A stretch of 64,000 nucleotides of DNA from contig NZ_JAQNDM010000002.1 of the NCBI RefSeq assembly GCF_028368975.1, positions 7,992,425 to 8,056,424 of the forward strand, in the 5' to 3' direction. The notes under the pieces are model-generated. The model did no database searches. It was not told the origin of the DNA and worked only from the letters and a program-made list of their open reading frames with translations. Position 1 is the stretch's first letter. Each line of letters begins with the position of its first letter. Origin of the DNA: Stigmatella ashevillena. Its GTDB lineage: Bacteria > Myxococcota > Myxococcia > Myxococcales > Myxococcaceae. Below, in pieces: positions 24,013 to 51,939 of this stretch. A program made the position numbers and the translations under genes.

Positions 24013-26166
24013 CTACGGCAACTCTTCGACCATCAGCAGGTTCTGCCCCCGATTCCAACCGAAGGAATTGGAGCCGCAGGTGCTTCCATCCTGTTGCAGC
24101 GTCGTCGACCAGATAGAGAACGTGTGGTAGCCAGGCATCAGGTTGGGAACGAGGCACGTCAGATTCATCGGATGGTGGTGATTCTGAGCAGCCCCCGCGT
24201 TCCACACGAATTGGCCGTTGGTGCACCCCGTCGGCTGGTAGTCGACATACAGTTGGAAAGAGCCCCACTTCCCGTTGCAACTGGCCACGGCACGGAACGT
24301 GTCCGAGTAGGTCACCTTCAAGGTCTTCCCAGGCGAACTGACGCTGTGCGCGATCTGCCGCGCACCGACACCCGCCCAGTCTCCAGAGAGTTCACCACTT
24401 CCGATGCTCATGTTCGAGAAGGTGAGCCCGGTATTCGGAAGTTCCTCGACGAGAAGAAGGGGACTGCTCCGCTCCCAACCCAGGTAGGCATCTCCCCCGC
24501 CTGCGGTCTGCGAGAACGCGACGTCCAACTGATGCCTCCCCGCGGAGACGTTATGGAGGACGCAGGTCATCACGAAAGGATTGATGATATTGCCGCCCGT
24601 TCCCTGCCCGTCGAACTTGCCCGTGTAACAACTGGTGGTAGCGCCATCGAGCCGTACCATCACCGTCGCTGATCCTCCATCCCGTGCATGACCCGCCCGG
24701 AATGTGTCCGCGAGCGTGACTTTGAGAAGCGAGGACGCGGTCTGCTTCGTGAAGGTGACCTCCCGTCCGTTCACCTTGACGAGCGCAGTGCTCACCGTGG
24801 CCTCTCCGATGCCTTCCTTCGAAAATGCGTAGGGCTGGGCGTCATCCATTTCCTCGGCGAGGAGCAGTGCACTGCCACTGTAGTTTCCGCCAATGTAACT
24901 GGTCCCGAGATCCGCGATCGACCACACATCGAATTCATACAGACCTTTGGGAAGCGTGTCAGTGAGACACACGTTCGCGAAGGGAAACTGATAATTCTGA
25001 TTCCAACCAGACACATTGGAGTTGAACTGCTTGGCGTCGCAGCCCATTCCGCTGCCATTCATTCGCACCGAGTACCAGCCACTTCCTCCGTTGTAGTTGT
25101 GACCCACCCGGAAGTTGTCGGAGATGGTGAGCTTGATGCGAGACGTATCCTTGGTCTTGTAGATCGACACCTGGCGAGACACGGGGACCCACAGGGTGGT
25201 GATCTCTCCAGAGGGGTAGCCTCCCCGCGGGTTGCTCGCCCACTTCGTCCGGAAGAGATTGGCCATGCTGCACACGAACTGGGTGGTCGTGACCTCGGCG
25301 TCGTTCAGGACCTTGTCGCCATTCAAATCGAGGCCACTCTTCACGGCCGTGCCGCCGTAGGCACAGTTGGTGCCCGAGGCGTCGGGATCGAGCCGAACGA
25401 GGGAGTTCTTTCCATTCTGACCGTCGTTGCCACGCAGGCCATTGCACACGAAGGTGGTGTTCGTGACCTCGCTTGTCTCGAGCGTGCCATTGGAGTTGGC
25501 GTCGAGGCCACTCTTCACGGCCGTGCCACCTTGATTGCAGTTTGCACCGGACGGCTCGACATCGAGCCGGATGAGGGCTTGGCTGCCGGCCGCTTCTGCA
25601 AGAGGGGTGCAGACGTACTGAGTCGTTGTCACCTCCGTGCTCTCGAGTTGCGCGTTGGCGTTCACGTCGATGCCCCCGAGCACGGCCGTTCCATTCCGTG
25701 AACAGTGCGCACCGGCAGTCTCGGGGATCAACTTCACCAAATAGGTGTTCCCACTCTTCCCGTCTCCGCCGTTGCAGAGGTACTGCGTGCTTGAGACCTC
25801 GGTGTCTGCCTGGATCCCGTCGGCGTTCGTGTCGAGGCCGGACAGGATGGCGGTGCCACCGGACGCGCACCGGGCGCCTGCGGACTCGGGCATCAGCTTC
25901 ACGAGCGACATGCTCCCCGTCTGGCCACCGCCACCGCTGCACACGTACGAGGTCTGCTTCACCTCATCGTCGGACAAGGCGCCGTCCTCATTGTCGTCGA
26001 GGCCGGTCAGGATCGCGGTGCCTCCTTGTGGGCACCTCGTTCCGGGTGGTTCTGGAACGAGCCGGACCGAGGCATCCTTGCCATCGGTCGAAGGCGAATA
26101 ACAGGCGGTGAGCGCGAAAACCAGACCGGCCACGACGGACCGGCGCCAAATCCAATACTGGTGCAT
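24013..26166 (-). CDS. Lipoprotein with DUF7151-type repeats
   Basis: 717 residues. The signal and lipobox are MHQYWIWRRSVVAGLVFALTAC (in short: FALTAC), followed by about five repeats of ~60 residues: an LVRLxPExxGxxC half, then GLDxNxNGxLExxEVTxTQYVC. The Asp/Asn pattern suggests calcium binding, and each repeat has a Cys pair. The C-terminal ~400 residues contain three related beta domains (each beginning near KVTYSDTFRA or KLTISDNFRVGH and ending in LLLxEEL). It is surface-exposed by inference, with no enzymatic motif. The start at 26166 has GGGGGAGAAG upstream; an upstream in-frame start to 26211 is less likely. Confidence 0.75.
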   Translation of the reverse strand: MHQYWIWRRSVVAGLVFALTACYSPSTDGKDASVRLVPEPPGTRCPQGGTAILTGLDDNEDGALSDDEVKQTSYVCSGGGGQTGSMSLVKLMPESAGARCASGGTAILSGLDTNADGIQADTEVSSTQYLCNGGDGKSGNTYLVKLIPETAGAHCSRNGTAVLGGIDVNANAQLESTEVTTTQYVCTPLAEAAGSQALIRLDVEPSGANCNQGGTAVKSGLDANSNGTLETSEVTNTTFVCNGLRGNDGQNGKNSLVRLDPDASGTNCAYGGTAVKSGLDLNGDKVLNDAEVTTTQFVCSMANLFRTKWASNPRGGYPSGEITTLWVPVSRQVSIYKTKDTSRIKLTISDNFRVGHNYNGGSGWYSVRMNGSGMGCDAKQFNSNVSGWNQNYQFPFANVCLTDTLPKGLYEFDVWSIADLGTSYIGGNYSGSALLLAEEMDDAQPYAFSKEGIGEATVSTALVKVNGREVTFTKQTASSLLKVTLADTFRAGHARDGGSATVMVRLDGATTSCYTGKFDGQGTGGNIINPFVMTCVLHNVSAGRHQLDVAFSQTAGGGDAYLGWERSSPLLLVEELPNTGLTFSNMSIGSGELSGDWAGVGARQIAHSVSSPGKTLKVTYSDTFRAVASCNGKWGSFQLYVDYQPTGCTNGQFVWNAGAAQNHHHPMNLTCLVPNLMPGYHTFSIWSTTLQQDGSTCGSNSFGWNRGQNLLMVEELP

Positions 26167-26564
26167 TTGAACTTCTCCCCCATGACTGGCTCGCGGGACA
26201 CGGCACTTCACGATTCACTCGCAAGCCAGCGGACAGGAGAAAACCTTGTTTCACTGTCAACGTCAAACTACCACGGCTGTGATGGCTGAGCGCCTGTCTG
26301 ACCGGCGACAGCGGAATGACAGCAATGTCACCTGTCCGTCAGGCGTCTGTGATTCGGGGGCCTCCTGCCGCATGGATCCACCCATCAACGGGGAGTCGGC
26401 GCTTGCGTATTGGCTGCCCCAGCCTGATGGGCTGAACTCGAATTTCACTTCGAGTCCTCCTTCGCGAAGAAGGCCGCTGCTTTTTTAGTTGGTCAGCGAA
26501 CGAAGGAGCTGAACGTGGGATTCCGGGGTGTCCGCCCACGGACACAACGGGCTAGAATTTTCCC
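26167..26564. other. Divergent intergenic region, no gene seen
   Basis: 398 bp between the repeat lipoprotein (minus) and a histidine kinase (plus). No supported coding frame. It contains several short inverted repeats, for example CCTTCGCGAAGAAGG near 26460 and GTCCGCCCACGGAC near 26529. The region probably holds both promoters. Confidence 0.4.
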
Positions 26565-31773: not shown

Positions 31774-31795
31774 GGGCCCTCCTCATGGAGGGCCC
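31774..31795. terminator. Bidirectional hairpin between coiled-coil gene and osmC operon end
   Basis: A perfect 9-bp stem GGGCCCTCC / GGAGGGCCC closed by a TCAT tetraloop. It sits six bases after the coiled-coil gene stop and 20 bp from the end of the convergent biosynthetic operon. Confidence 0.65.
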
Positions 31796-31814
31796 ATGCA
31801 AGGCCATTCCTTGC

Positions 31815-32246
31815 TCAAGTTCCCGGGGCAACGACCGTGAGGCGTATCGACTTCGCGACGTTCCCCGCGATCGTCCGGCCAATCGGGCAGAACTGCTCGG
31901 CCCGCTCGGAGAGGCCCCGAAGTGTTTCCTCGCTCGCGTTGGAGACGATTCGGGAGAGAAGAACGATTTCCTGAACCGAGGGCCGTGGCCCCATGTCCAT
32001 CCGCAGCTCGCCTTCGAGTTCCAGGCCCTCGTAAGCGATCCTCGCCTTGTCGAGGATGATGCCGAAGGTGATGAGGTAGCAGCTCGCGACGGCGCCCAGG
32101 AGCAGGTTCTCGGGGGTAGCGGCCTCCCCGAGCCCCTGGAAGTCCTTCGGCAGCGTCACACGGGTTTCGAGGCCCTCGCCCGCCTGGAGGAATCCGCTTC
32201 CCCCCGCGCCGCCCTTCCAACGTACTTTGATGTGTGTCTGGCTCAT
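31815..32246 (-). CDS. OsmC-family protein
   Basis: 143 residues. OsmC fold with TPENLLLGAVASCYLITF, where the peroxidatic Cys sits in ASCYL, and SERAEQFCPIGRTI carrying the second redox Cys. The family reduces organic hydroperoxides; some members are thiol-dependent hydrolases. The start at 32246 forms an ATGA overlap with the cupin gene, so it is the last gene of the nine-gene biosynthetic operon. It may protect against peroxides formed by the oxygenases or catalyse a tailoring step; the former is the conservative reading. Confidence 0.85.
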   Translation of the reverse strand: MSQTHIKVRWKGGAGGSGFLQAGEGLETRVTLPKDFQGLGEAATPENLLLGAVASCYLITFGIILDKARIAYEGLELEGELRMDMGPRPSVQEIVLLSRIVSNASEETLRGLSERAEQFCPIGRTIAGNVAKSIRLTVVAPGT

Positions 32247-32698
32247 GGGTGACCTTCCTGGGAGGACGCCTCTTCGCGGAGGGCAATCTCGCCGAGGTTT
32301 TGCAGCAGTGGAGCGTTCTCGCAGGCCACGTATTCGGCCTCGAGCTTCGCGTGGAGGTTGACGTGGCGGTGCCAGGCCCAGACGGGGACGTAGACAGCGT
32401 CTCCGGCCTTCCACTCGATCTTCCGGTCCTCGACGAGTGTGTAGCCCTGACCCTTCACGATGTAGAGGATCGTCTCGTAGTTGTGACGGTGCAGCCGCGT
32501 GGACTGCTCGGGACGCAAATGCCCGATCGTCAGGCTGAGGGTGCGCGAGGGCAGTTCCACGAGTGCCACGCCGTGGCCTCGCTCGTCCGAGAACGCGCCG
32601 TGGAACTGCTCCGTCACCCCCGCGTGGTGCAGCCGCTCGGGCACTTGCGCGAGGAGGACCGCGCGCGTCTTCGCGAAATCCTTCGAGCTAAAGTGCAC
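32243..32698 (-). CDS. Cupin-domain protein
   Basis: About 151 residues, single cupin. Motif 1 is STRLHRHNYETILYIVKGQG, with metal ligands expected from HRHNYE; motif 2 is AGDAVYVPVWAWHRHVNL, where the first His of WHRHVN is a likely ligand. It could be a mononuclear iron dioxygenase or a non-catalytic metal-binding protein. The start GTG at 32698 has GGAGGG six bases upstream and overlaps the preceding gene by 11 bp; a TTG at 32722 would add eight residues. Its position next to a di-iron oxidase in an aminohydroxybenzoate pathway suggests an oxidative tailoring role, by inference. Confidence 0.75.
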   Translation of the reverse strand: MHFSSKDFAKTRAVLLAQVPERLHHAGVTEQFHGAFSDERGHGVALVELPSRTLSLTIGHLRPEQSTRLHRHNYETILYIVKGQGYTLVEDRKIEWKAGDAVYVPVWAWHRHVNLHAKLEAEYVACENAPLLQNLGEIALREEASSQEGHP

Positions 32699-33413
32699 TG
32701 GCGGCCCTCCGTGAGGTGTCAACGGCTTCCACCGTGGGCGCGGCCAGCGCGGCGAAGAACGCGCGGCGGGTTTCGATGCTCTCCTCTGCGGCCGCGCGCA
32801 GCACGCTCCGCTTGTCGGGCCGCGCGGCGAGTTCCCGCTCGATGATTTGCTTCATCGTCAGGGCGTGGCCGTCATCGCCCTCGATGTGCAGCGGGAAGAA
32901 GGTGAGCTCCCGCTCCGGAAAACCGGCGCTCAGGAGGCCGGTGAGGATCTGCTGGTAGACGTGCGGAACGATGGCCTCCGCGCCGAGGCAGAGCGCGCCG
33001 AGCCCGACCAAGGGCTCGGCGTCCGAACAGAGCCGCAGCATGCCCCTCACCAAGGCCGTCGTCTCCGCGAGCGGCGGCTGGGTGGAAGGATCCAACCCGA
33101 AAGCATCCAACATCTGCCGGTAGATCTGCGAGTGAGGGATCTCGCCCATGCCTCCGAGCCCCATCTCCTCGAAGAGGTTCTCCGTCAGGGCGAAGCGGTC
33201 GGCTTCGCTGGTCATGTTCGCCAGCAGGGCGCAGAGGTAGCGCGTGAAGTGGCGGGAATAGTGGTACTGCTGCACGAGGAACGTCTCGAGCACGTCGCGG
33301 GCTGCCATTCCTTGGCGGCAGCGCGTGAGAAACACGGTGGCATCGAGCCGTTCCAGAGACTCTCTGGGGAGCAGGCCGCTCCAGCGGGCCGAGAGTTGAG
33401 TGGCGGTGGTCAT
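32688..33413 (-). CDS. Haem-oxygenase-like di-iron oxidase (HDO, iron-containing redox enzyme)
   Basis: 241 residues, all helical, matching the TenA/CADD-like HDO superfamily that includes UndA, BesC and the central domain of SznF. Likely metal ligands lie in NLFEEMGLGGMGEIPHSQ (in part EEMGLG, IPHSQ), in CLGAEAIVPHVYQQI and in FFPLHIEGDDGHA. These give the Glu/His/Asp set of the family. Known HDOs perform N-oxygenation, C-C cleavage or desaturation with O2. The ATG at 33413 overlaps the upstream ligase stop as TGATG, so translation is coupled. In this operon, oxidation of an arylamine or removal of a carboxylate are both open possibilities. Confidence 0.8.
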   Translation of the reverse strand: MTTATQLSARWSGLLPRESLERLDATVFLTRCRQGMAARDVLETFLVQQYHYSRHFTRYLCALLANMTSEADRFALTENLFEEMGLGGMGEIPHSQIYRQMLDAFGLDPSTQPPLAETTALVRGMLRLCSDAEPLVGLGALCLGAEAIVPHVYQQILTGLLSAGFPERELTFFPLHIEGDDGHALTMKQIIERELAARPDKRSVLRAAAEESIETRRAFFAALAAPTVEAVDTSRRAASAL

Positions 33414-35104
33414 CACGCGATTCCTTTCCTCAAGTTCAAGCGGCCGATGGCGGCATGGGCCGGGGTTTCATTCATTCGCAAGACCCGCTTCAGGACCTTG
33501 CCCGTGGTTCCCAGGGGGATTGCGTCCATGCCGACGATCAGAACGCCGCCCAGCGTGGGCAGGCCTGAACTGGCGAGTTCCTGGTTGAAGCGCGTGGTGA
33601 GCACCGACGCGCTGTATCTCGAGAGGTTCGAGCTTGGCCGGATCCGCACATAGGCTACCGCCTGGATGGCGCCCGAGCCCTCCGCTTCCTCGCCGAATAC
33701 CGCGCAGTCCGCGATCGCCGCGAAGCGGCTCAGCAGCAGCTCTTCGGTCTGCAGGCCATAGACGGGACCCGTGGGCGTGAGAATCACGTCCGGTGTGCGA
33801 TCCACGTGGAAGAAACGGCCCTCCTCATCGCGGTAGGCGAGGTCCCCGGTGAGGAAGTAGCCGGAGAGGCGGGACCGGTACGTGAGCAGGCTGTTGTTCC
33901 AGTACCCGGTCGTCACCGAAGGCGCCTTCACCCCGAGGCGTCCGACCTGGAACGGCGGAAGCTTCTCGCCCTCCTCGGAGAGGATCTGCGCATCCACCCA
34001 TTCGAGCGGCCGACCGACGCACCGGTTGTAGAGGTTGGTCTTGAGCGTGTGGACGTGGCGGAACAGCGAGAAGCCCATCTCGGAGGAGCCCATGCCATCG
34101 ATGAACACCGAACCGGGCTGCCGCTGACCGTTCTGCTCATGGAAGCCATGGCGGATGAGTGCTCGAATATGGCTCTCGTGGGCCGCGTCTCCGCCGTTGA
34201 ACCAGAGGTTCACCGAGGAGAGATCAAAGGCGTCCATCTCGCACTCGGTCATCTCGACATAGGTCTGCGGGAACGAGACGACCATGCTGGGCTTGAAGGT
34301 GTCGATCTGCCCCAGCACGGCGCGTCCCGAGTGATCAGAGGCGATGTAGACCGGCGTCCCGCTCAGCAAGGCGAGCATGATGTAGGCGATGGCGCAGTTA
34401 TGGGAATGCGGGAGCGACGACAGGATGCGCTCCCCCCCCGCGACCCTGGGCACTCCCAGCCGGTAGCGCACCCCGTGGAAGAAGCGCTCGTGCTGGAGCA
34501 GCACGGCCTTGGGAATGCCCGTCGTCCCCGAGGAGTGTGCGATCATGATCGGGTCATCGGCGGAGAACTCGTGCCGCCGGTAGGTGGGCAAAGCCTCCTC
34601 GGGGGTTCCCCGGAGGTCGGCTTCGGTGACGATGAATCCGTACCCGCTCTCTTGGGTCAGGGGACGCAGCGCCTGGATGTGGGACGCGTCCGTGAAGATG
34701 CCGGCCACGCCCACATTGCGCGCATGCACCGCGGCGATCCGGGGATCCATGTTGCCGTTGGTGAGGACGCCGATCGCGCCCAGGTGCGTGAGCGCGAGGT
34801 AATGGATGAGGTACTCCACCCCATCGTCGAGGTAGACGAAGACGGGATCCGCTGCGCGCACCCCCAGCTTCTTATAGAGCCGGGCGTAGAGGTGCGCGAG
34901 ACGGGCGAGCTGCTCGAGGCTGAGCTCTCGGAACTTCTCTCCGGTGAATGTCTCCAGTTCGCGCTCGAGAGAGAGGATGGGCGCCTGCGGCGCCGGGCTC
35001 GCCTTCAGGGCCCAGTCGAGGAAGTTCCCGGCGCCCAGCACCGGATCCTTCGCAAGCTCGAAGCGGCGCTCGTCGGCGACGAGCGTGGTTGGCAATGCAG
35101 TCAT
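33413..35104 (-). CDS. Adenylate-forming enzyme (ANL superfamily acyl/aryl-CoA or acyl-AMP ligase)
   Basis: 563 residues. ANL motifs: A3 P-loop IAHSSGTTGIPKAVL, A5 FIDGMGSSEMGFS, A7 YFLTGDLAYRDEEGRF, A8 linker VDRTPDVILT and A10 catalytic Lys in LGTTGKVLKRVL. The N-terminus starts MTALPTTLVADERRFEL. The substrate-pocket residues do not allow a confident assignment; an aryl or fatty acid is possible. Start 35104 is chosen because the upstream open frame (to 35374) has no protein-like composition. It lies 23 bp after the PaaK-like ligase gene. Paired with that ligase, it may supply the activated partner acid for coupling to an aminohydroxybenzoate. Confidence 0.88.
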   Translation of the reverse strand: MTALPTTLVADERRFELAKDPVLGAGNFLDWALKASPAPQAPILSLERELETFTGEKFRELSLEQLARLAHLYARLYKKLGVRAADPVFVYLDDGVEYLIHYLALTHLGAIGVLTNGNMDPRIAAVHARNVGVAGIFTDASHIQALRPLTQESGYGFIVTEADLRGTPEEALPTYRRHEFSADDPIMIAHSSGTTGIPKAVLLQHERFFHGVRYRLGVPRVAGGERILSSLPHSHNCAIAYIMLALLSGTPVYIASDHSGRAVLGQIDTFKPSMVVSFPQTYVEMTECEMDAFDLSSVNLWFNGGDAAHESHIRALIRHGFHEQNGQRQPGSVFIDGMGSSEMGFSLFRHVHTLKTNLYNRCVGRPLEWVDAQILSEEGEKLPPFQVGRLGVKAPSVTTGYWNNSLLTYRSRLSGYFLTGDLAYRDEEGRFFHVDRTPDVILTPTGPVYGLQTEELLLSRFAAIADCAVFGEEAEGSGAIQAVAYVRIRPSSNLSRYSASVLTTRFNQELASSGLPTLGGVLIVGMDAIPLGTTGKVLKRVLRMNETPAHAAIGRLNLRKGIA

Positions 35105-35127
35105 GTGTAGTGGCTCTTTCCTACGCG

Positions 35128-36390
35128 TCAGGCGTAATCCAGCGACTTCCAGTCTTCGGTTTCCCCAAAGAGAAAACGGGGCTTTTGCATCGGGACTTCT
35201 CGGGAGAGCAGCGCGTCTGGAACGAAGCGCTCCGCCGCGACGGCGGTGACCTTCACGCGGACTCCCGGGACGGCGGCTTCCAGGGCTTGCAAGACACGCA
35301 TGCGCGCTGAGTCTTCGTCGGCGTGGATCTCGACTTCCAAGGAGCCCTCCCGAACGCGGGCGCGCCAGAACCACAGGCCCGTCTTCGCCGCGTCGGCATA
35401 GATGGCTTCTTCCAGCTCCAGCGCGGAAACCGCTCGCGCGCCGACGTTCACCAGGCCCATCTCGCGCCCCAGGACGCGGACGGTCGGCAGCGCGCTGCCA
35501 CAGGCGCAGGGCGCATGCGAGAGTTCGACCGTGTCCTCCATGTCGTAGCGGATGAGGGGCATGGCCTTCCGGAACAGCGGGGTGACGACGAGGGTTCCAG
35601 AGCCCTCTTGGTGGAAGCCCCCCGTTTGGGAATCACGCACCTCGAAGTAGAGCCGGTCGCTCCAGAGGTGGAGGTGCCCCCGTTCGCACTCTCCCGCCAG
35701 GCTGCCCGTCTCGGTGGAGCCATAGTCGATGAGCACGCGCTTTCCGCCCCACAGGGCCTCGATGCGGGCGCGCTTCGCGGCGCCCAGGGGCTCGCCCGCG
35801 ACCAGGAAGGTTCGCAGTCGAGGGAAGTCCTTCGCGGGGTTCTGTCCTGCCTTTCGCGCGGCATGGGCCCAGAGAAGCGCTTCGGTGGGCATGCACCAGG
35901 CGACTGTCACCGGCAGGTCGTGCAACAGGCGAAGCACGCGGGAGTACGGCATGTTGGCTGAACGGTTGTCCGCGGGGACGATGGTCGCGCCCACGGTGCG
36001 CGCCGCGCCATGCATTTGGTGGGCGGTGGTGACCAGCGCATACGGTGTTTTGATCAGCACCATGTCTTGTCGGCAAAGCCTCACGCCGTTTCTCAAGAAC
36101 CGCGTGAGGATGTCTTCCCAATCCCCCTCGGTGAAATACGAGGAGATGGGTCGTCCGCTCGTTCCCGAGGACTCGTGATAGGTGCTGAGCTGGTCCGGTG
36201 AAACGGCGAGCAGGCCGAAGGGGTATGCCGCCCGCAGATCGTCTTTCTTCGTCAGGGGGAGTTGCTCCCAACGCTTCCGGTCAAGAGACTCTGTTTTTGG
36301 AAACCGGCCCTCGTACAAGGGGGCGGCACGGGCACGCTGGAGGGCCTCTTCAAGTTGCTGCCGGGGAAACGCAGGCGTCGGCGAGGTCAT
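35128..36390 (-). CDS. PaaK-like (phenylacetate-CoA ligase family) adenylate-forming enzyme
   Basis: 420 residues. The short ANL type of PaaK: P-loop YHESSGTSGRPISSYFT, then VAGEPLGAAKRARIE, LIDYGSTETGSLAG and the RYDMEDTVEL block. A Cys pair (APCACGSALP) is typical of PaaK proteins. The C-terminal subdomain ends in FVPDALLSREVPMQKPRFL with a Lys in the expected catalytic region. Family members activate aromatic acids, which suits 3-amino-4-hydroxybenzoate. ATG 36390 is used; ATG 36396 is equally in frame. The start overlaps the amidohydrolase stop by four bases. Confidence 0.85.
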   Translation of the reverse strand: MTSPTPAFPRQQLEEALQRARAAPLYEGRFPKTESLDRKRWEQLPLTKKDDLRAAYPFGLLAVSPDQLSTYHESSGTSGRPISSYFTEGDWEDILTRFLRNGVRLCRQDMVLIKTPYALVTTAHQMHGAARTVGATIVPADNRSANMPYSRVLRLLHDLPVTVAWCMPTEALLWAHAARKAGQNPAKDFPRLRTFLVAGEPLGAAKRARIEALWGGKRVLIDYGSTETGSLAGECERGHLHLWSDRLYFEVRDSQTGGFHQEGSGTLVVTPLFRKAMPLIRYDMEDTVELSHAPCACGSALPTVRVLGREMGLVNVGARAVSALELEEAIYADAAKTGLWFWRARVREGSLEVEIHADEDSARMRVLQALEAAVPGVRVKVTAVAAERFVPDALLSREVPMQKPRFLFGETEDWKSLDYA

Positions 36391-37190
36391 GGGCATCCCC
36401 CCGCGAGGAGGCGCCGGATGTTGCCACCGGTGATGGCCTCCAGCTCTGCCTTGTCCACGGTCAACTCCTGGACCTTGCAGAGCTCCGCTGAGGCGCTCTG
36501 CAGGGGATACTCGGACCCATAGAGGACCCGGGAGGCACCGAGCACGCCGACCGCGTACTGAATCACGTGCTTGAAGGCTCCCGAGGTTTCGAAATAGAGG
36601 TTCGGCTGCCCGGCAATGGCATCCACCCCGTCGTAGTCGAGTTCACCGATGCCACCGTGGCCCAGGATCAGCCGGAGCCCGCTGTACCGCTCGGCCAGGC
36701 GCACGAGGTCCAAGACCCGGAACCCGTCCCGATCCAGGCAATGCAGATACACGGGGTGTCCGAGCCCTTGCGCCACGTCGAGGTAGGCCGAGGTTCGCGG
36801 AGAATCGAGCGGCACACCGTGAACCGCGGGCCCCAGCTTCAAGCCGGCGAAGCGTGGTCCGAGTTCCCGGTACTCCCCAGGGTCGAGCCAGGGATTGGCG
36901 AAGTAGAAGGGGACGAGTCGGCCCCCGGAGCGCTCGCACAGCGAGAGGATCGAGCGATTGTCACAGGTCAAGCCTTGCGTCTCCGCGGGTGTCGGCTGTC
37001 TCAGGATCTGCCGCGAGAGCTGCCGGGGTGTCAGCAGCCCCCCTCCGACGACGATGCATCGCTCGACGTCGAGCTGATCCATCGTGGCGAGAAGCCGCTC
37101 GAAGGCCTCCTGCGTCGCCAGCAGGTGGGCATGGCTGTCAACGAACGCTGGCAAGGGCGATCTCCCGTTCACCGCGCGCGGATCCACCAT
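36387..37190 (-). CDS. Amidohydrolase-family (PF04909-like) protein
   Basis: About 267 residues. It begins with the metal motif FVDSHAHLL (HxH) and has GLKLGPAVHG, YLHCLDRDG, LILGHGG and a terminal VLYGSEYPLQSA, where the Asp usually expected appears as Ser-Glu. The fold matches amidohydrolase 2/TatD-like TIM barrels. In the nataxazole and caboxamycin pathways a PF04909 amidohydrolase closes the benzoxazole ring from an aminophenol-derived ester or amide, so the family fits this operon. The start is uncertain: ATG 37190 overlaps the aldolase gene by 53 bp; TTG 37154 with GGGAGA upstream would start just before the metal motif. Confidence 0.8.
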   Translation of the reverse strand: MVDPRAVNGRSPLPAFVDSHAHLLATQEAFERLLATMDQLDVERCIVVGGGLLTPRQLSRQILRQPTPAETQGLTCDNRSILSLCERSGGRLVPFYFANPWLDPGEYRELGPRFAGLKLGPAVHGVPLDSPRTSAYLDVAQGLGHPVYLHCLDRDGFRVLDLVRLAERYSGLRLILGHGGIGELDYDGVDAIAGQPNLYFETSGAFKHVIQYAVGVLGASRVLYGSEYPLQSASAELCKVQELTVDKAELEAITGGNIRRLLAGGCP

Positions 37191-37941
37191 GGACAAGCCC
37201 CGAGAGGCGCTCCAGGAACTGCTCCAGGTTCTTCTTCACGAAGATGTTGCGCCCGATGCAGACCCCCTTGGCGCCAGCGCGGAGGGCATGCGAGACGTGC
37301 TCCAGCAGGGGCTCATCGCCCGTCAGCTCGCCTCCGGCGACGAAGACCAGGACATCGCTCTGCACGTCCTCGAGCGCTTCGCGGAGCAGTTCCGGCCGCT
37401 CGCCCATACCGATCTTGAGCGCGTCGGTCCCCAGCTCCACCGCGGTGCGCATCAACTGCTTGAGCCGACGCACGCGCTGAGGTTCCTCGCCCACCTTGTC
37501 GTAGAGCATGGTGAGGACTGGCAGCCCGTAGCGGGCGGCGCCATCCACGGCTTGCCCCACCATCTTCCAGTTCGCCCGGTCGTTCCGTCCGTTGAAGTTG
37601 ACTTGGAGGGACACCGCGTCGGCCCCAAGCAGCAGGGCTGTTTCGATGCTCGTCAGCCATTCCTTGTCATCGACCGAGTCGGAAAGATTGCTCATTCCGT
37701 TCAGGTGGAGGATGACCCCTTTGCGGTCCAGGGCGCCGTGTGCCGCCAGACGTGAGAGGATTCCCTTGTGTGCGATGACCGCATCGACGCCGGGATGGTG
37801 GATCCAGCGTGCGATGCGTCCCGTGGACTCGATTCCCTCCAGGGGCCCCATGGTGAGTCCGTGATCGATGGGGACAATCACTGCCCGCTGGCTTTTCGCG
37901 CCCAGGATCTTCCCGAGCCGTATCTTCTTCGCCGCATTCAT
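37138..37941 (-). CDS. GriI/AroA'-type class I aldolase (DhnA family)
   Basis: 267 residues of the archaeal-type class I FBP aldolase/ADH-synthase family. It has AVIVPIDHGLTMGP at the N-terminus, the Schiff-base Lys region GTDALKIGMGE and the phosphate-binding end GAKGVCIGRNIF. In grixazone biosynthesis GriI condenses aspartate semialdehyde with dihydroxyacetone phosphate; in archaea AroA' makes the 6-deoxy-sugar precursor of dehydroquinate. The adjacent DHQ-synthase-II homologue and an aspartokinase favour the GriI role, giving 3-amino-4-hydroxybenzoate. It lies 14 bp downstream of that homologue. I infer the reaction from the pair rather than active-site detail. Confidence 0.88.
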   Translation of the reverse strand: MNAAKKIRLGKILGAKSQRAVIVPIDHGLTMGPLEGIESTGRIARWIHHPGVDAVIAHKGILSRLAAHGALDRKGVILHLNGMSNLSDSVDDKEWLTSIETALLLGADAVSLQVNFNGRNDRANWKMVGQAVDGAARYGLPVLTMLYDKVGEEPQRVRRLKQLMRTAVELGTDALKIGMGERPELLREALEDVQSDVLVFVAGGELTGDEPLLEHVSHALRAGAKGVCIGRNIFVKKNLEQFLERLSGLVHGGSARGEREIALASVR

Positions 37942-37955: not shown

Positions 37956-39230
37956 TCAGCTTTCCTTGATGTTCTCGTCGATCTTGATGCCGACGTGACG
38001 GCCCGGCACCGCCTTGTGCGCCAGGATCTGATCACCCGGCCGCAGCTCGGTGATGTTGAGAGGCTTTGCCTCGGGCGAGAAGACACGGACGTGCCAGTCG
38101 TCCTGGAGGAGCACGTTGATGGTCTCTCCCGAAGCGAAGCGGGCTTCGATGAGCCGCAGCGGCCTCGTCTCGGTTTTCATCCGGCCGACAGGCGCCTGCC
38201 GCGTCGCACCGTTGGAGCTGACGATCATCACGGACGAGCCCGCGTTGAGCTCGCTCATGTAGTGGGTTCGGTTCGCGGCGTTGTAGACGTAGCTGTGCAC
38301 GCCACCCGCGTTGACCCGGAAGGGGCGCGTTTCCATGTACGGCAGGAAGAACACCTCCGGGCAGCACAACACCCCTCCCTGCGAGGTGGAACCCACGATC
38401 ATCCCTTCGGTGGGCTCGAAGAGCGTCGCCAGATCGATGCAACTCCGGAAGCCCATGCCAACCGGCTCGGACTTCGTGACCGTGGCGGGCTCGAGCGTGA
38501 CGTGCTCTTGGCCGCGCTCGGCGAGCCTGCGCGCGAAACCCTCCAGCCGCTCGTGCTCGATGGGTGAGAACATCACACCGTCGGCTCCGACCTCCATGAC
38601 GCCCAGGGTGACGATGGCGTCGTCGACGTGGTTGGGGTTCGCGATCTCCTTGATCAAGGTGGTACCGGTTGCCTGCAGGGACGCGATCACCAGCTCCAGG
38701 GGAATGTTTGTCGGGTCGCGGAAGCAGATCATCAGGAACGGGTGGTGGAACCCCTGCTGGATGGAGCGGTGCAGCGACTCGCCGTCGTCGACATACTGGT
38801 AGACGCAGGTGGACAGGCCTGCCTCGCCCGCGCGGGTCAGGAGGCCCTGGTGCGGCGATACCGCGATCAGGGGGGCTTGGAACCGCCGGAGGATCTCCTG
38901 GTCCGTGCCTGCGGTGAGCAGCGCCTCCAGCTCCCCCATGGACTCCAGGCGAACAGCGACCTTCAGCCCTCCGGGAATCGCGGGCAGCAAGGCCTCGAGG
39001 TTTCTCGGATGGAGGAGGACGCCCGTGTAGTGGAAGCGTCCCAGCCGCAGGAGCAGCCCTTGGTGGTCTTGAGGCGCCGAGAAATCCTTCGTGTCGAACC
39101 AGATCTGGGTCTGGGCCTGTTTCCCCCCCTTGGCGTTTCCGGCCATGGCTTCGAGCCGGATGGGCTTGCGGAGCGCGGCGAGATCCTCTTGGCGGGTTCG
39201 GGAGTATCCGTTCGTGATGTCGAGTGTCAT
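37956..39230 (-). CDS. GriH-type 3-dehydroquinate synthase II homologue
   Basis: 424 residues. This family (AroB'/GriH) is otherwise mainly archaeal. Conserved blocks: VYQYVDDGESL, IKEIANPNHVDDAIVTLGVMEVG (in part LGVMEVGADGV), KSEPVGMGFRSCIDLATLF, GMIVGSTSQGG and YMETRPFRVNAGGVHSY, ending in ITELRPGDQILAH. In the grixazone pathway GriH converts the GriI product to 3-amino-4-hydroxybenzoic acid without the shikimate route. At 424 residues it is somewhat longer than typical archaeal members, mostly at the N-terminus (to ~50). Start 39230 overlaps the aspartokinase stop by ATGA and has AAGGTGG five bases upstream. Confidence 0.9.
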   Translation of the reverse strand: MTLDITNGYSRTRQEDLAALRKPIRLEAMAGNAKGGKQAQTQIWFDTKDFSAPQDHQGLLLRLGRFHYTGVLLHPRNLEALLPAIPGGLKVAVRLESMGELEALLTAGTDQEILRRFQAPLIAVSPHQGLLTRAGEAGLSTCVYQYVDDGESLHRSIQQGFHHPFLMICFRDPTNIPLELVIASLQATGTTLIKEIANPNHVDDAIVTLGVMEVGADGVMFSPIEHERLEGFARRLAERGQEHVTLEPATVTKSEPVGMGFRSCIDLATLFEPTEGMIVGSTSQGGVLCCPEVFFLPYMETRPFRVNAGGVHSYVYNAANRTHYMSELNAGSSVMIVSSNGATRQAPVGRMKTETRPLRLIEARFASGETINVLLQDDWHVRVFSPEAKPLNITELRPGDQILAHKAVPGRHVGIKIDENIKES

Positions 39231-40039
39231 GCGACCACCTTCTGGATGTGATGGGTTGGGTTCAGGGTTTCCACGGTGTCGTCTCGGCCAACCCAGGTGC
39301 CGCTTCCCTCATGGAAGGCGGAGCGCACATGGAGGCGGACACCGTGACGGGCCGCGATCTGCACGGCGGAGTGCTGGAGAACCTGGGCACCGGTCTTCAC
39401 GAGGGCTTCCATGTCCTCGTAGGAGACGCGCTCCAGCTTCCGAGCGTGGGGATTGCGGCGCGGATCCTCGGCGAAGACACCGTCGACATCCTTGAAGAGC
39501 TCGCAGGCGTCGGCGCGGAGGCTGGCCGCGAGCGCCACGGCCGTCATGTCCGAGCCGCCGCGCCCGAGTGTGACGTAGCGGTCCTGCGCGTCGATGCCCT
39601 GGAAACCCGCGACGACCGGCAGCTCTCCCCGGGCGAGCGAAGCCTCCAACCGCCCCGTCTCGAACTCGAGGATGGCCGCGTTCCCGAAGCGTCCGTCGGT
39701 CTTGATGCGGATCTGGTGGGCCAGGAAGGACCGCGCCCGGATGCCGAGCTGCTCGAGCGCCAGCGCCATCAGCCCCGCGGAGACCTGCTCGCCTGTCGCG
39801 AGCACCGCATCGATCTCTGCGTGAGCGGTCTCGGAGGAGAGCTGGGCCGCCAGCGCGACCAAGCGGTCCGTCTCCTCGCCCATGGCGCTGACCACGGCGA
39901 TGACCTGGTGGCCTCTTGAGAATTCAGCACCGAGGCGCGCTGCCGCCCGGCGGATGCTCGCGGCGGTTGCCAGCGCGGCGCCTCCAAACTTCATGATCTG
40001 TCGGCGCCTCGGGCCGCCCAGTCCGATGGATGTATGCAT
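39227..40039 (-). CDS. Aspartate kinase catalytic domain without ACT domains
   Basis: 270 residues, against ~400-450 for housekeeping aspartokinases. The amino-acid-kinase domain is complete: KFGGAALA at the start, VIAVVSAMGEETDRL, the VLATGEQVSAGL substrate loop, TLGRGGSDMTAVALAA and ELFKDVDGVFAEDPRR. The protein ends just after VQIAARHGVRLHVRS, with no room for ACT regulatory domains, so Lys/Thr feedback inhibition is not expected. The first gene of the operon, it would feed aspartyl phosphate to aspartate semialdehyde, the GriI substrate. No semialdehyde dehydrogenase is in the window. The ATG at 40039 (or GTG 40042) has AGGGAG upstream. Confidence 0.88.
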   Translation of the reverse strand: MHTSIGLGGPRRRQIMKFGGAALATAASIRRAAARLGAEFSRGHQVIAVVSAMGEETDRLVALAAQLSSETAHAEIDAVLATGEQVSAGLMALALEQLGIRARSFLAHQIRIKTDGRFGNAAILEFETGRLEASLARGELPVVAGFQGIDAQDRYVTLGRGGSDMTAVALAASLRADACELFKDVDGVFAEDPRRNPHARKLERVSYEDMEALVKTGAQVLQHSAVQIAARHGVRLHVRSAFHEGSGTWVGRDDTVETLNPTHHIQKVVA

Positions 40040-40141
40040 CACAGCTCCCTCTCAGCCGATACCGCGCCAGGCGCGGAGTTCGTGACAGGACAACTCCCAC
40101 GAAGGACGGTGGCGAGGGAGGGAACGGAATCGCAACCCAAC

Positions 40142-40158
40142 GTTCCACAAGTTGGAAC
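40142..40158. promoter_or_regulatory. LysR-type operator candidate
   Basis: GTTCCA-CAAGT-TGGAAC is a perfect inverted repeat containing the T-N11-A core of LysR-family boxes. It is located 16 bp before the lysR start and about 100 bp upstream of the divergent nine-gene operon. It is the likely binding site for autoregulation and pathway control. Confidence 0.6.
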
Positions 40159-40173
40159 AACGACGGAGAACCC

Positions 40174-41079
40174 TTGCCCAGGGACATCAACCTCAACCGC
40201 ATCGAAATCTTCAGGGAAGTCGCCTTGAGCGGGAGCTTCACCAAGGCCGCCTTGACGCTGAAACAGCCGAAGTCGCGGGTCAGCCGCAACATCTCGGCCC
40301 TCGAGTCAGAGCTGGGCGTGCAGCTCATCCACCGCTCCTCGCGGCATTTCCGGCTGACAGAGGCCGGGCGCGTGTTCTACGCGAGGATGCAGGGGCTGAT
40401 GGAGCAGGTGCACGAGGCCATCAACGAGCTCACCGAGACGACGAACGAAGTCGCGGGCCCCATTCGGATCAGCGTGGCCGAGGACATCGGGCATTCCCTC
40501 ATGAGCCACGTCTGCCATGACTTCCTGAAACAGTATCCGAAGGTTCAGGTCGAGCTTCACCTCACGAACGATTGCGTCGAGGCGCTGGGGAGTTCATTTG
40601 ATCTCGCCGTGCGTGTGGGTCGACTGAAGGACAGCGCCGCCCTTCAAAGGAAAGTGGGAGAGACGTACCTGCTGCTCGTCGCGAGTCCCGTTTTCCTTCG
40701 TGAGTACGGCGAGCTGCCAAGGGATCCGACCGAGTTCATCGAGCTTCCATTCCTCGGCTTCTCTCGGTTCGGTTCCTTTCAGCAGCAATTGTCGCTGGTG
40801 AATGGAGGCGTCAAGCGCCAGGTCAAGGTCAAGATTCCCTTCTTGAGCAATGACTTGTTGGTCCTGAAGTCCATGGCGATGAAGGGCATGGGGCTCGCAT
40901 GGCTTCCGAGCTTCATCCTGAGGGATGAACTTCACAAGGGGACACTGGTCCACGTGTTTCGTGGCTGGACGTCACAGGCCTTCCCCATCCAGATCGTGTT
41001 GCCCCCGAGGAAGGACAGCCCCCTGCGAATCAAGCGCTTCGTTGATTTCGTGGCAGCGGCGCTCCAGAAGGAGTTTTGA
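40174..41079 (+). CDS. LysR-family transcriptional regulator of the adjacent biosynthetic operon
   Basis: 301 residues, the family's usual length. The N-terminal winged helix-turn-helix is clear (LNRIEIFREVALSGSFTKAA, then SRNISALESELGVQLIHRS). A periplasmic-binding-like effector domain follows from ~90 (GPIRISVAEDIGHSL, LAVRVGRLKDS, KGMGLAWLPSFIL). The start is TTG 40174 with GGAG six bases upstream; the longer open frame to 40030 overlaps the operator region and lacks similarity. It is divergent from the aspartokinase-led operon, so it probably controls it, with a pathway intermediate as inducer by analogy. Confidence 0.92.
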   Translation: MPRDINLNRIEIFREVALSGSFTKAALTLKQPKSRVSRNISALESELGVQLIHRSSRHFRLTEAGRVFYARMQGLMEQVHEAINELTETTNEVAGPIRISVAEDIGHSLMSHVCHDFLKQYPKVQVELHLTNDCVEALGSSFDLAVRVGRLKDSAALQRKVGETYLLLVASPVFLREYGELPRDPTEFIELPFLGFSRFGSFQQQLSLVNGGVKRQVKVKIPFLSNDLLVLKSMAMKGMGLAWLPSFILRDELHKGTLVHVFRGWTSQAFPIQIVLPPRKDSPLRIKRFVDFVAAALQKEF

Positions 41080-44371: not shown

Positions 44372-47300
44372 TTACGGCTGAGAGCCGTACACCTGGAACT
44401 CCCACAGCGAGTAGCCATAGTCGGGCAGCGCGCGCTGAGTGCCATTCATGCGCACGTAGCGGCCAGTGCCGGACACGCTGAAGTCGTCGATGCCGCCGTC
44501 GCCGGTGGTGGTGGAGTAGATGTTTGTCCACGGGCCGGACGCGCTGGACGCGGTCTGGATCTGGTAGCCAGTCGCGTAGGCCGGCTCCCAGTTGAGGACC
44601 ACGCGGGTGATGGTCGCGCTCGCGCCGAGGTCGACGTAGAGCCACTCGTTGTTGGTGAAGGCGCTCCCCCACCGCGTGCCGGCATTGCCGTCCACCGCGT
44701 TGGCCACACCGAGGCCTGCCTGGGCCGATGACGCCGTCGCCGACTTCCCCTGCGAGAGCAGGGTACCAGTGCTCATCGACGTGCCGTACACCTGGAACTC
44801 CCACAGCGAGTAGCCATAGCCGGGCAGCGCGCGCTGAGAGCCGTTCATGCGCACGTAGCGGCCAGTGCCGGACACGCTGAAGTCGTCGATGCCGCCGTCG
44901 CCGGTGGTGGTGGAGTAGATGTTTGTCCACGGGCCGGACGCGCTGGACGCGGTCTGGATCTGGTAGCCAGTCGCGTAGGCCGGCTCCCAGTTGAGGACCA
45001 CGCGGGTGATGGTCGCGCTCGCGCCGAGGTCGACGTAGAGCCACTCGTTATTGGTGAAGGCGCTCCCCCACCGCGTGTCGGCATTGCCGTCCACCGCGTT
45101 GGCCGCACCGAGGCCCGCCTCGGCCGACGACGCCGTCGCCGACTTCCCCTGCGAGAGGAGCGTCCCCGTGGGATTGCCCGGCGTGGTCGCGCTCGCCTGA
45201 TTCGAGCCGGCCGAGGACCCCGCCGCGTCCACCGCCTTGACGACGTAGTAGTACGTGGTCGAGGCGGCGACCGTGCCGTCCTGGTACGTCGTGCCGGTCA
45301 ACCCGGTGGCGATCCGGTTGGTGGTGCCGGGCGTGAAGCCAGAGGTTGTCGCCCGGAAAACGTCGTAGGTGACGGCGCAGCCCGAGCCGGCCGTGCTCGC
45401 GCCCCACGCCAGCGAGAGCTGGGTGGCGGAGTTGGCCGTCGCGGAGAGCGTTCCCGGGACCGAGGGAACCGTGGTGCAGGATCCGCCGGTCACGGTGAGG
45501 GTGGCGGCGTTGCTGATCACCCCCCCACCCGCGTTGGTGACGACGACGGTGAACTGTGCACCGCTGTCGGCCACCGTGGTCGTCGGCGTGGTGTAGCTGG
45601 TGGCGGTCGCCCCAGCGATGGTCGCGCCGTTCTTGCGCCACTGGTAGGTCAGCGTCCCGGACCCGCTCGCCGCCACACTGAACGTGGCGGTCTGGCCCAC
45701 CGCGACCGTCTTCGAGGTCGGCTGCGTGGTGATGGTGGGCGCGGCGACCGTCGATCCAGAGGTGCACACCACGCCACCGGGGTAGTTGTTCGCGACTTGC
45801 CAGGTCGACAGGCCGGTGTAGCTGACGAAGGCGGCGCGCGTCGCGTCCGACGGGTCGGCGGTGGAACTCCAGGTGCTCCACGGGAGCGGGAACGCGCACG
45901 CGGCCGAGTTCACGCCACCAATGCCGAGCGCCTCGGCCTGGGTGGGCAGGCGCATGCTCTGCGACGCGCAGTACGCCTGGGCGATGGCCTGCGTGTACTG
46001 CGCGCCCTGATCCGCGTAGGTCGTCTGGGCGCGCTGCCACGTGAGGCCGCTCTGGTTGTCTTTCACGAGCGCGCTGGAGAGGACCGTGAAGCGCTCGCCC
46101 GCGCCGCCACACTGGGGCACGTTGTAGACCTGCAGTTCGTACAGCGAGTAGCCGTACGTGGTGGCGCGCGCTTGGCCGTACATGCGCACGTACCGCCCCT
46201 GGACGGTGGGGAAGCTCACCGTCTCGACGCCGCCCTGTCCATTCGTGTTGCTGGCGGCGAGGTACCAGGCCTGCCCGTCGTTGGAGTACTGGATCTGGTA
46301 CTGCGTGGCGTAGGCGGCCTCCCAGTAAAGCACGACGGTGTTGAGGGCCTTCACGGTGCCGAGGTCAACCTGGAGCCAGGAGGGATCGATCGCACCGGCG
46401 GAGGCCCACCGCGTGGTGAGGTCACCGTCGGTCGCATAGGTTGCCTCGAGGCCCCCGCCCTGGGTGCTGCTGCCCGTGGTCGGCTGGCGCAACGCCAGGT
46501 TGGTGCCAGGCGGGGCGATGGTGAGCGTCGCCGCCGCGCTTGTCACGCTCCCCGCGGCGTTGCTGACGACGACCGTGTACTTGCCCGCGTCGCCGTTCTG
46601 GGCCTGCGCGATGGTGTACGTGGAGCCGTTCGCGCCAGTGATGTTCGCGCCGTTGAACTGCCACTGGTAGGTGAACGGTGACGTCCCGGAAGCCATGACG
46701 GAGAAGCTCACCGGATCGTTGGCCCGGACGGAGACGCTGGTCGGCTGCTGCGTGAGGGTCGGCGCGACCGCGGGATTGACCGTGAGGATGGCCGCGGCTG
46801 AGGTCATCGAGTTGACGGGGTTCGTCACCACCACCGAGTAGCTCGCCCCGTTGTCGGCCGCGGTGAGGACCGGGGTGGTGTAGGTGGCTGCGGTGGCGCC
46901 GGCGATGGCCGTCCCGTTCTTGCGCCACTGGTAGGTGAGCGTCGGAGACCCGGTCGCCGTGACCGAGAACGTCGCGGTCTGGCCCACGTAGGCCGTTCGG
47001 CTGGCGGGCGGCGTGGTGATCGCGACCGCAGCGGGGGCGACCACCGTGAGCGAGGCAGCGCTCGAGGTAGCCGAGCCCAGGCTGTTGGTGAGCCTCACGG
47101 TGAACTGGGCGTTGTTGTCGGCGGAGGTGGTGGCTGGCGTGACGTAGTTCGCCGCGGTCGCGCCGGAGATCGCCGTGCCGTTCCGAAACCACTGGAAGGT
47201 CATCGGCGCCGTGCCGGTCGCCGTGACGGTGAACGTGGCCGACTGGCCGGAGGTGACCGCGGTGCTCGCTGGCTGGAGGATGATCGTCGGCGCCGTCGCC

Positions 47301-50534: not shown

Positions 50535-51404
50535 CTACGGCGCGGCGGGTGCGTGCTGGGTATAGACGGTGGGCATCACCGCGCGCATGCGCGCGCCCAG
50601 CCCTACGAGGCTCTCGGAGTGTCCGAGGAAGAGCAAGCCCGAGGGCGACAGGTGGCTCAGCAATCGTTCCACGGCGTGGGCCCGCGATGCCTGATCGAAG
50701 TAGATGAGGACGTTGCGACAGAAGATGAGGTCGAAGCGCCCCAAGACGCCGTGTCCATCATTCAGGTTCACTCGCTGGAATCGCACCATCCCGCGCAGCT
50801 CCGAGCCCGCCTTCATCCATGCTTCCTGGGTCCCCACCCCCCGTAGCATGAAGGCCCGGAGGTAGTGCTTGGGAACCTCCCGTGCCTTCGCCACCGGGAA
50901 CCGGGCCTGGCGGGCCTGCTCGAGAATGCGCGTGGAGAGATCCGTTGCCAGGATGTCGATGTCCCAGCCCTCCGTGAGGGGCAGGTGGTGGCGCAGCACC
51001 ATGGCCAGCGAGAAGGGCTCCTCCCCTGTCGAACACCCCGCGCTCCACACGCGGACCCGCCGGGGCTCGCCACTCCCGGTCTCTTTCTGCGCCCTCCAGC
51101 GGGGGAGCACTTCGCGCTCCAGGAATTCGAAGTGACGGGGCTCCCGGAAGAAGTGCGTCTCGTGCGTGCACAGTGCGTCCAGCAACCGGACCCGCTCCAT
51201 GTCGTTCGTTTCCGCACAGCGGAGGTAGGCGCCGAACGAGGGGCTCTTCAGCTCGCGCAAACGTCGCGCCAGCCGACCCACCACGAGAGCCTTCTTCGCC
51301 GGAGAGAGCCAGATGCCCGCCTCGCGGTAGATCAGTCGCTGGAAACCCGCGAACTCCCGCTCGGACAGCGCAGGCGGTTCGGTGAACGCTTCTCCCTGTT
51401 TCAT
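50535..51404 (-). CDS. cheR: CheR chemoreceptor methyltransferase
   Basis: 289 residues. N-terminal helical domain (FAGFQRLIYREAGIWLSPAKK) and C-terminal Rossmann methyltransferase domain with the SAM motif RVWSAGCSTGEEPFSLAM, DILATDLSTRILEQAR and FDLIFCRNVLIYF. It methylates glutamates on the chemoreceptor using S-adenosylmethionine. The start overlaps the cheW stop by ATGA. It is last in the che operon. No CheB methylesterase is present in the window, so adaptation would need a distant partner or be one-way. Confidence 0.95.
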   Translation of the reverse strand: MKQGEAFTEPPALSEREFAGFQRLIYREAGIWLSPAKKALVVGRLARRLRELKSPSFGAYLRCAETNDMERVRLLDALCTHETHFFREPRHFEFLEREVLPRWRAQKETGSGEPRRVRVWSAGCSTGEEPFSLAMVLRHHLPLTEGWDIDILATDLSTRILEQARQARFPVAKAREVPKHYLRAFMLRGVGTQEAWMKAGSELRGMVRFQRVNLNDGHGVLGRFDLIFCRNVLIYFDQASRAHAVERLLSHLSPSGLLFLGHSESLVGLGARMRAVMPTVYTQHAPAAP

Positions 51405-51937: not shown

Positions 51938-51939
51938 GG

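Follow-up and report, generated by a model that had tools for sequence, protein, structure and literature searches.

A conserved Stigmatella ashevillena operon combining putative benzoxazole-forming enzymes with a diazotase-clade ligase and a haem-oxygenase-like protein-cupin pair

Few pathways are known in which a benzoxazole is formed by a condensing amidohydrolase. The closest described is that of closoxazole, encoded by the clx genes of Clostridium cavendishii and the pfx genes of Pyxidicoccus fallax; according to the available part of PMC12118335, PfxB and PfxC together make the benzoxazole in vitro and the purified amide is not accepted, from which its authors conclude that the route passes through an ester, and the resulting benzoxazole intermediate still bears a free phenolic amine. 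The nataxazole pathway offers a second precedent, with an amidohydrolase, NatAM, of two domains and about 494 residues (PMC7204872, as far as available). A separate line of chemistry is represented by the ATP-dependent diazotases/N-nitrosases AvaA6, CmaA6, CreM, Aha11 and Tri17: the characterised members of the AvaA6/Tri17 group activate nitrite, and AvaA6 diazotises an o-aminophenol substrate derived, like the closoxazole core, from 3-amino-4-hydroxybenzoic acid (3,4-AHBA), in those portions of the published accounts that were accessible. Here we describe an operon of Stigmatella ashevillena with relatives of both groups of enzymes, situated in a window of 64,000 nucleotides (G000:C2:7992425-8056424), the whole stretch of DNA analysed, from a genome of 10.95 Mb in two contigs.

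The operon lies on the minus strand and is transcribed in the order aspartate kinase (AspK), 3,4-AHBA synthase, aldolase, amidohydrolase, PaaK-like ligase (LigP), FadD-like ligase (LigF), haem-oxygenase-like diiron protein (HDO), cupin and a small open reading frame (ORF). No intergenic gap exceeds 23 bp, and neighbouring ORFs overlap by 4-59 bp, the ORFs having been called mechanically, with start codons that may be off by some residues. The common strand, these tight gaps and overlaps, and the recurrence of the same order in other genomes indicate that the grouping is not due to chance. An earlier, sequence-only reading had confined the system to positions 33413-37190 and placed the amidohydrolase between two adenylating enzymes of unlike subfamilies. 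The core genes of that interval are real, including a PF04909 amidohydrolase and two PF00501 ligases, one PaaK-like and one FadD-like, but HDO, the cupin and the small ORF lie downstream outside it and the amidohydrolase is not flanked, both ligases being on its downstream side.

The 3,4-AHBA genes which the same reading had assumed are present upstream. The synthase (37956..39230) is of the dehydroquinate (DHQ) synthase II type represented by GriH, BagC, ClxB and PfxD (PF01959, 1e-87; 61% identity to PfxD; NCBIfam BagC_FevH at 2.2e-69, below the cut-off of that model), and the aldolase (37138..37941) is a DhnA-type, 2-amino-3,7-dideoxy-hept-6-ulosonate synthase-like protein of the GriI/ClxE/PfxE type (PF01791, 3e-28; NCBIfam PRK07226, 2.6e-56, and BagB_FevI, 1.3e-30). 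AspK (39227..40042, 271 aa) consists of the catalytic domain alone (PF00696, 2.1e-49, with no other Pfam domain reported; aspartate kinase models match) and presumably supplies aspartate semialdehyde for 3,4-AHBA.

From the comparisons set out below we infer the catalytic steps, both coupled acids and the product as follows. LigP would adenylate one 3,4-AHBA and esterify the phenol of another, and the amidohydrolase would close this unstable ester with loss of water, giving the benzoxazole acid known as a closoxazole intermediate, for which we use the name 2-(3-amino-4-hydroxyphenyl)benzoxazole-5-carboxylate. LigF would couple no further acid and would most likely activate nitrite and diazotise the remaining o-aminophenol nitrogen, while HDO and the cupin would add further oxidation; the product would probably be a 3,4-AHBA benzoxazole that has undergone diazotisation or oxidation at its remaining aminophenol nitrogen. 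We lean, by a modest measure, towards this explanation as a whole, that is, a benzoxazole core, a diazotase-type LigF and oxidation by HDO and the cupin. Its benzoxazole part draws on close functional relatives, and its N-N-forming or N-oxidising part on clade membership and gene linkage only.

The amidohydrolase (36387..37196, 269 aa; PF04909, E 1.5e-21) keeps H22, H24, H152 and H180 and carries Glu229 where an Asp would be expected. A scan of the named genomes returned at least 80 loci with relatives; of 80 such loci, 12 without an amidohydrolase ORF at 1e-6 were excluded, and among the 68 relatives with a readable ORF residue 229 is Glu in 46, Asp in 21 and Asn in one. A PaaK-like ligase and/or 3,4-AHBA genes occur within 8 kb on either side at 45 of the 46 Glu-type loci, the 46th belonging to a Pseudobacteriovorax metagenome-assembled genome (MAG), and at none of the 22 Asp/Asn-type loci over up to the same distance. 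Since one of the two retrieval patterns contained the Glu, Glu rows are enriched by design, and the absence of this gene context around the Asp/Asn types is the informative half of the comparison. In a tree of 63 rows, the Glu type, PfxB and the window amidohydrolase fall on one side of a branch with support of 99/96 (12 of 75 rows, for the most part incomplete matches or uncertain paralogue ORFs, were left out, namely L120, L122, L123, L124, L128, L130, L135, L136 and L137, all of Asp type, and the own-genome paralogues L002, L003 and L006). The window enzyme, 33% identical to PfxB, belongs there to a nine-row subclade (100/99) with the Pseudobacteriovorax MAG and actinobacterial rows, apart from the PfxB subclade.

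ACMSD-like decarboxylases share the PF04909 family and its fold, and an enzyme of that kind would take the carboxyl group off 3,4-AHBA. The predicted structure of the amidohydrolase (predicted local distance difference test, pLDDT, 91.2) matched hydrolases, decarboxylases and the LigJ hydratase alike in a fold search (50 top rows listed, Z 19.6-26.8; ACMSD and dihydroxybenzoate decarboxylases at Z ~20), and the readings are not separable by fold. The strand-8 Asp that binds metal in the decarboxylases (aligned 6m53 and 3s4t) is, however, replaced by Glu229 in the window enzyme, the PfxB clade is split from the Asp/Asn types in a tree whose rows include neither ClxD nor any characterised decarboxylase, and the Asp/Asn-type loci have none of the neighbouring ligase or 3,4-AHBA genes. 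Decarboxylation was rejected on residue, clade and gene context, and we give it next to no credence; the sequence-only reading had named a phylogenetic grouping with decarboxylases as its refutation, and the tree went the other way. In our sample Glu in place of Asp is a sequence mark that separates PfxB-type enzymes from other PF04909 amidohydrolases. The condensing-type amidohydrolases of a Pseudonocardiales MAG, Prauserella shujinwangii and Rhodococcus rhodnii (L077, L078 and L079) appear from the alignment to lack two metal ligands, H24 being replaced by Arg and H152 by Val, and nonetheless adjoin 3,4-AHBA and NatL2-like genes.

LigP (35128..36396, PF00501) has NatL2 as its best match in the PDB (6siw, 1.2e-106, 360 bits), followed at a distance by 9s3l (2.2e-55, 191 bits), a 401-residue chain that we take, from its size and kin, to be ClxA. 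In the alignment, T117, T124, R145 and W167 of LigP correspond to the acceptor-pocket residues T128, T135, R156 and W178 of NatL2, the zinc ligands C237, H243, C297 and C299 are kept, and K405 stands at the cross-over lysine K418; the L033 row (in a wrong frame) and the 'R68' column (a residue mismatched with the published numbering) were not used. The roles of these acceptor, zinc and lysine residues are those given in the accessible part of PMC7204872. PfxC retains just R156 among the four acceptor residues, and LigP is 39% identical to PfxC and 28% to PfxA. As its pocket, zinc ligands and lysine are conserved, LigP should carry out NatL2-like ester formation, and the ester-then-cyclise logic of nataxazole would be expected here. 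The comparison with nataxazole made in the sequence-only reading is imprecise for the amidohydrolase, which is a 269-residue, PF04909-only enzyme unlike the two-domain NatAM and has its real relatives among the ClxD/PfxB kind.

LigP might instead stop at a 3,4-AHBA dimer joined by an ester or amide bond, much as in bagremycin and ferroverdin, with the amidohydrolase removing a carrier or protecting group. Members of the BagE/FevW model form esters, LigP does match that model (396 bits, below its 800-bit cut-off), and the amidohydrolase fold is common to many hydrolases; the placement of the amidohydrolase in the PfxB clade, with Glu229 present in 46 of 46 clade relatives, makes such a dimer an improbable end point. 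The formation of a benzoxazole from 3,4-AHBA by an adenylating enzyme and a PF04909 amidohydrolase, as the sequence-only reading had proposed, is supported by the NatL2-like LigP and the PfxB-clade enzyme, and we consider benzoxazole formation by the operon highly probable on these sequence grounds. The clostridial 3,4-AHBA route mentioned in that reading does exist, as the closoxazole pathway of C. cavendishii; for the Pfx enzymes, from a myxobacterium, reconstitution in vitro has been achieved, as stated in the available text of PMC12118335.

The operon resembles the closoxazole clusters in its 3,4-AHBA synthase and aldolase, its PaaK-like coupling ligase and its PfxB-clade amidohydrolase, but it has no orthologue of ClxC/PfxA and carries a diazotase-clade ligase, HDO and a cupin instead. 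PfxA found one match only in the 64-kb window at 1e-5, namely LigP (28%), and in the absence of a second PaaK-like ligase the operon is a variant rather than a closoxazole cluster. Within the GTDB family, amidohydrolase matches at 1e-10 occur at 23 places in 13 of 96 genomes. Five genomes, S. ashevillena included, carry the window type (89-100% identity in the amidohydrolase search), and the remaining 18 places are weaker (29-36%). Fourteen of these were examined (L036-L049; L028-L031 were left out): amidohydrolase, PaaK-like ligase, DHQ synthase II and aldolase are found in 14/14, AspK in 13/14 and a second PaaK-like ligase in 10/14. One of the weaker loci (genome G056) is the published P. 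fallax pfx cluster, in the order pfxA-B-C-D-E, and another lies in the S. ashevillena genome itself (L045, C2:2637500-2657400), where all five Pfx proteins have counterparts at 73-79% identity in their main stretches. This genome consequently has two benzoxazole-type clusters, one of them orthologous to the closoxazole cluster, and the operon described here therefore probably makes something other than closoxazole.

LigF (33413..35104, PF00501) sets the operon apart. It scores 478 bits against NCBIfam NF058622, the AvaA6 diazotase model, against which a homologue situated beside CreE and CreD genes scores 357 bits. Its PDB matches 8ztz, 9xb8, 9bq0 and 8tf7 all stand at 4e-102 or better, the next match being at 3e-28, and two of these four are Tri17 (PMC11705231, as far as available). 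In a 25-row tree LigF shares a branch (85/87) with Tri17 and with genes that adjoin CreE/CreD; its neighbour there is a Sinorhizobium gene (88/95), which is also located next to 3,4-AHBA genes. The motifs SSGTTG (191), GSSEMG (339) and GK.LKR (535) are intact, so that the ATP/Mg motifs are kept, and the GSSEMG Glu is equated by motif with CreM E352, whose role is described in the accessible part of PMC11705231. The sequence-only reading had taken the two unlike ligases as a sign of two acids, one aromatic and one aliphatic; this does not fit LigF, whose best model and structures belong to enzymes that, where characterised, activate nitrite and not fatty acids. Given benzoxazole formation, a diazotase-type role for LigF is a good deal more plausible than its opposite.

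A closoxazole-like assembly would be another use for LigF, which would then adenylate the benzoxazole carboxylate or some other acid and add a third unit, the work of ClxC/PfxA having passed to a different subfamily. Acyl adenylation is a common PF00501 activity, and the operon, like the closoxazole clusters, does possess a second adenylating enzyme. ClxC/PfxA couples in this way in the known pathway, according to the part of PMC12118335 that was available. PfxA is, however, PaaK-like and gives no match to LigF at 1e-5, LigF is FadD-like and of the diazotase clade, and a PfxA orthologue (78%) already sits in the other cluster of this genome; we regard third-unit coupling as rather unlikely.

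The link of LigF with the benzoxazole genes gains from the distribution of the operon. The order AspK-DHQ synthase II-aldolase-amidohydrolase-LigP-LigF-HDO-cupin recurs in four other Myxococcota at 80-91% identity (L032-L035). LigF occurs at 1e-60 in seven of 195 Myxococcota genomes, five of them of the window type; among Actinomycetota it was found in five of 396 genomes, a sample drawn from a larger group. Among the matches listed, the amidohydrolases nearest to the window type after that of Hyalangium versicolor come from Nocardiopsis, Streptomyces iconiensis and the Pseudobacteriovorax MAG (46-49%), and the contig of the latter begins with HDO (51%), cupin (54%) and amidohydrolase (47%). 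The amidohydrolase is found at 1e-20 in two of 58 Bdellovibrionota genomes. One of these, G622 (L197), holds seven genes in the order of the window, AspK being absent, at 36-60% identity (DHQ synthase II 50, aldolase 40, amidohydrolase 36, LigP 46, LigF 51-60, HDO 43 and cupin 53%). Nothing else ties LigF, HDO and the cupin to the benzoxazole pair as strongly as this seven-gene order, preserved between such distant genomes.

Judged from sequence, S. iconiensis (L177/L178, G196:C1 ~219200-238400) likewise unites the benzoxazole pair and a diazotase-clade ligase, in a different arrangement. There the amidohydrolase is 46%, LigP 51% and the LigF relative 38% identical, and CreE (62%) and CreD (61%) provide the cluster with nitrous acid genes of its own. 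Its single-strand run reads AspK, DHQ synthase II, a weak AMP-binding match, amidohydrolase, LigP, flavin reductase and the LigF relative, followed by an O-methyltransferase, a nitroreductase-like protein, DUF6092, a cyclodipeptide synthase, a short-chain dehydrogenase/reductase (SDR), an aldolase (30%), CreE and CreD. The cyclodipeptide synthase, which also matches a cyclodityrosine synthase model below its cut-off, may be a member of the cluster or a mere neighbour; the product could possibly be a diazo-benzoxazole coupled to a cyclodipeptide.

HDO (32688..33416; PF14518, 8.3e-29) and the cupin (32243..32722; PF07883, 1.6e-13; PDB 3bu7, 1.8e-22) complete the conserved set. Aligned with CADD on what we take to be the CADD ligand numbering, HDO retains the core metal-ligand positions E84, H95, E147, H177, D181 and H184 (3H/3C), six positions common to the family of the CADD/NePabS 4-aminobenzoate synthases. 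The sacrificial residues of CADD, Tyr27 and Lys152 (named in the available part of PMC13108848), are replaced by Leu30 and Ile157. A CADD-type 4-aminobenzoate synthase, supplying that acid as in closoxazole B, was considered for HDO and rejected because both residues are absent. A structure predicted from three sequences (pLDDT 41.8) was too poor for judging the seventh carboxylate ligand (the 3H/4C Glu). The cupin, a single-domain relative of gentisate and 5-aminosalicylate 1,2-dioxygenases, has the motif HRHNYE and a later His.

HDO is found at 25 places in 17 of 195 Myxococcota genomes, and at 18 of the 20 places examined a cupin is fused to it or lies within 1.5 kb. The HDO-cupin pair is a standing unit, and its order is that of the SznF domains, HDO and then cupin (PMC13108848, in the part available), although the two are separate proteins here and the C-terminal cupin is in-chain in SznF. 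No SznF-named chain was present among the listed PDB matches of HDO, the cupin or the fused paralogue. That paralogue is a single HDO-cupin ORF of SznF-like layout elsewhere in the S. ashevillena genome (L195:9163-10311, C2 ~6519200-6520300), in which the third-helix HDO ligands look degenerate by eye. The same genome has a third AHBA-like locus (L196, C2 ~9568200-9578800) with an aldolase, AspK, a benzoate-type AMP ligase, a hydrolase, HDO and a cupin. Upstream of them are genes that by eye resemble transporters, and DHQ synthase II has no match in the stretch. LigF gave no match at 1e-5 within the 20-kb stretches around these two units. In genomes G036 and G038 an HDO-cupin pair lies ~14 kb from a LigF-like gene (31-32%), which falls outside the diazotase clade in the tree and, in G038, stands beside PaaA/PaaC-like genes.

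Twelve diazotase-clade neighbourhoods outside the window-type operons (L057-L060, L062, L063, L178 with L177, and L190-L194) show the converse. Four have CreE/CreD matches and eight have neither CreE/CreD nor HDO/cupin; none of the 12 has a match to the window HDO or cupin at 1e-5, L062 and L063 carrying another annotated cupin. On this distribution the HDO-cupin pair is only weakly tied to the diazotase, and its replacement of CreE/CreD is a hypothesis and not a pattern. As the pair also occurs without LigF, it may serve in this operon to oxidise the benzoxazole and not to supply nitrite. One of the 12 neighbourhoods, on a plasmid of Klebsiella michiganensis BD177 from Bactrocera dorsalis (L060), has a diazotase-clade ligase adjoining genes of the 3,4-AHBA synthase type as well as those for an NAD-dependent epimerase-type protein and a major facilitator superfamily (MFS) transporter, with no CreE or CreD match in the 25-kb stretch.

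Several observations weigh against the explanation we favour. The donor position of LigP is Asp224 where NatL2 has Glu235, so that the donor need not be 3,4-AHBA. LigF lies below the NF058622 equivalog cut-off (478 vs 975 bits), which makes it family kin and not the same enzyme by that model, the branch holding it is moderately supported, and members of the clade beyond those characterised could use carboxylates. The supply of nitrite is likewise not apparent: CreE was found in none of the five window-type genomes, nor in G036 and G038 (0/7 in total), by a query that was positive in two control records and in S. iconiensis, and no nitric oxide synthase was found in the five (0/5). LigF is also missing where its supposed partners occur, matches at 1e-40 being absent from all six genomes of L073-L075 and L077-L079. 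Five of these are actinobacterial and hold the benzoxazole pair (G197-G201; three of Nocardiopsis/Rhodococcus type and two more), which there evidently works without LigF; the sixth is the Pseudobacteriovorax MAG with HDO, cupin and amidohydrolase, a 3.0-Mb assembly in which the contig in question is cut. In G622, which does give a LigF match at that threshold, LigF (L197:6653-8262) is split over two overlapping frames with one stop, by pseudogenisation or sequencing error.

Some of these points have parallels in diazotase clusters. The search of the window-type genomes gave no close CreD, the best matches standing at 32-33% (33% in S. ashevillena); in the accessible part of PMC10777205, 72 of 134 ava-like clusters are likewise without CreE/CreD genes. 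The operon nevertheless differs from ava-type clusters in that no polyketide synthase and no SDR/AvaA7-type Pfam domain was found among its proteins. A more specific proposal would have the operon make a benzoxazole ortho-quinone diazide or a derivative, with HDO and the cupin, in a split SznF layout, giving the nitrosating nitrogen in place of CreE/CreD, and with S. iconiensis as an actinobacterial version that uses CreE/CreD and has its cyclodipeptide as a possible azo-coupling partner; we hold this to be speculative and distinctly unlikely. A literature search, with most subscription papers outside its scope, found no paper on a benzoxazole together with a diazotase, which does not show that the pairing has never been published, no paper dealing at once with benzoxazole, diazo and nitrous acid chemistry and a biosynthetic gene cluster, and no metabolite or enzyme assay for the window operon; the two closoxazole papers were the sole hits of a related search.

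The borders of the operon are conserved too. The small ORF next to the cupin (31783..32286), which has no Pfam match, is kept at 66-69% identity in the four orthologous Myxococcota loci, as is, at 71-76%, a LysR-family regulator on the plus strand, divergent from the operon (40030..41079; PF03466/PF00126). Elsewhere in the window lie a protein with five DUF7151-matching stretches (24013-26211), a large glycoside hydrolase family 2 protein with immunoglobulin-like and F5/8 type C domains (44372-50041), and chemotaxis-type genes for CheR, CheW, a methyl-accepting protein and a CheA-like kinase (50535-55290).

In this operon benzoxazole chemistry meets a ligase from an N-N-forming clade and an HDO-cupin unit, and the occurrence of this combination in the same order in two phyla indicates that it is selected for rather than an accident of one genome. 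HDO-cupin pairs are frequent among the myxobacterial HDO genes examined, and the operon is a setting in which their function can be asked about. Its genes also form a set small enough to be tested, for a heterocyclic product that is probably new.

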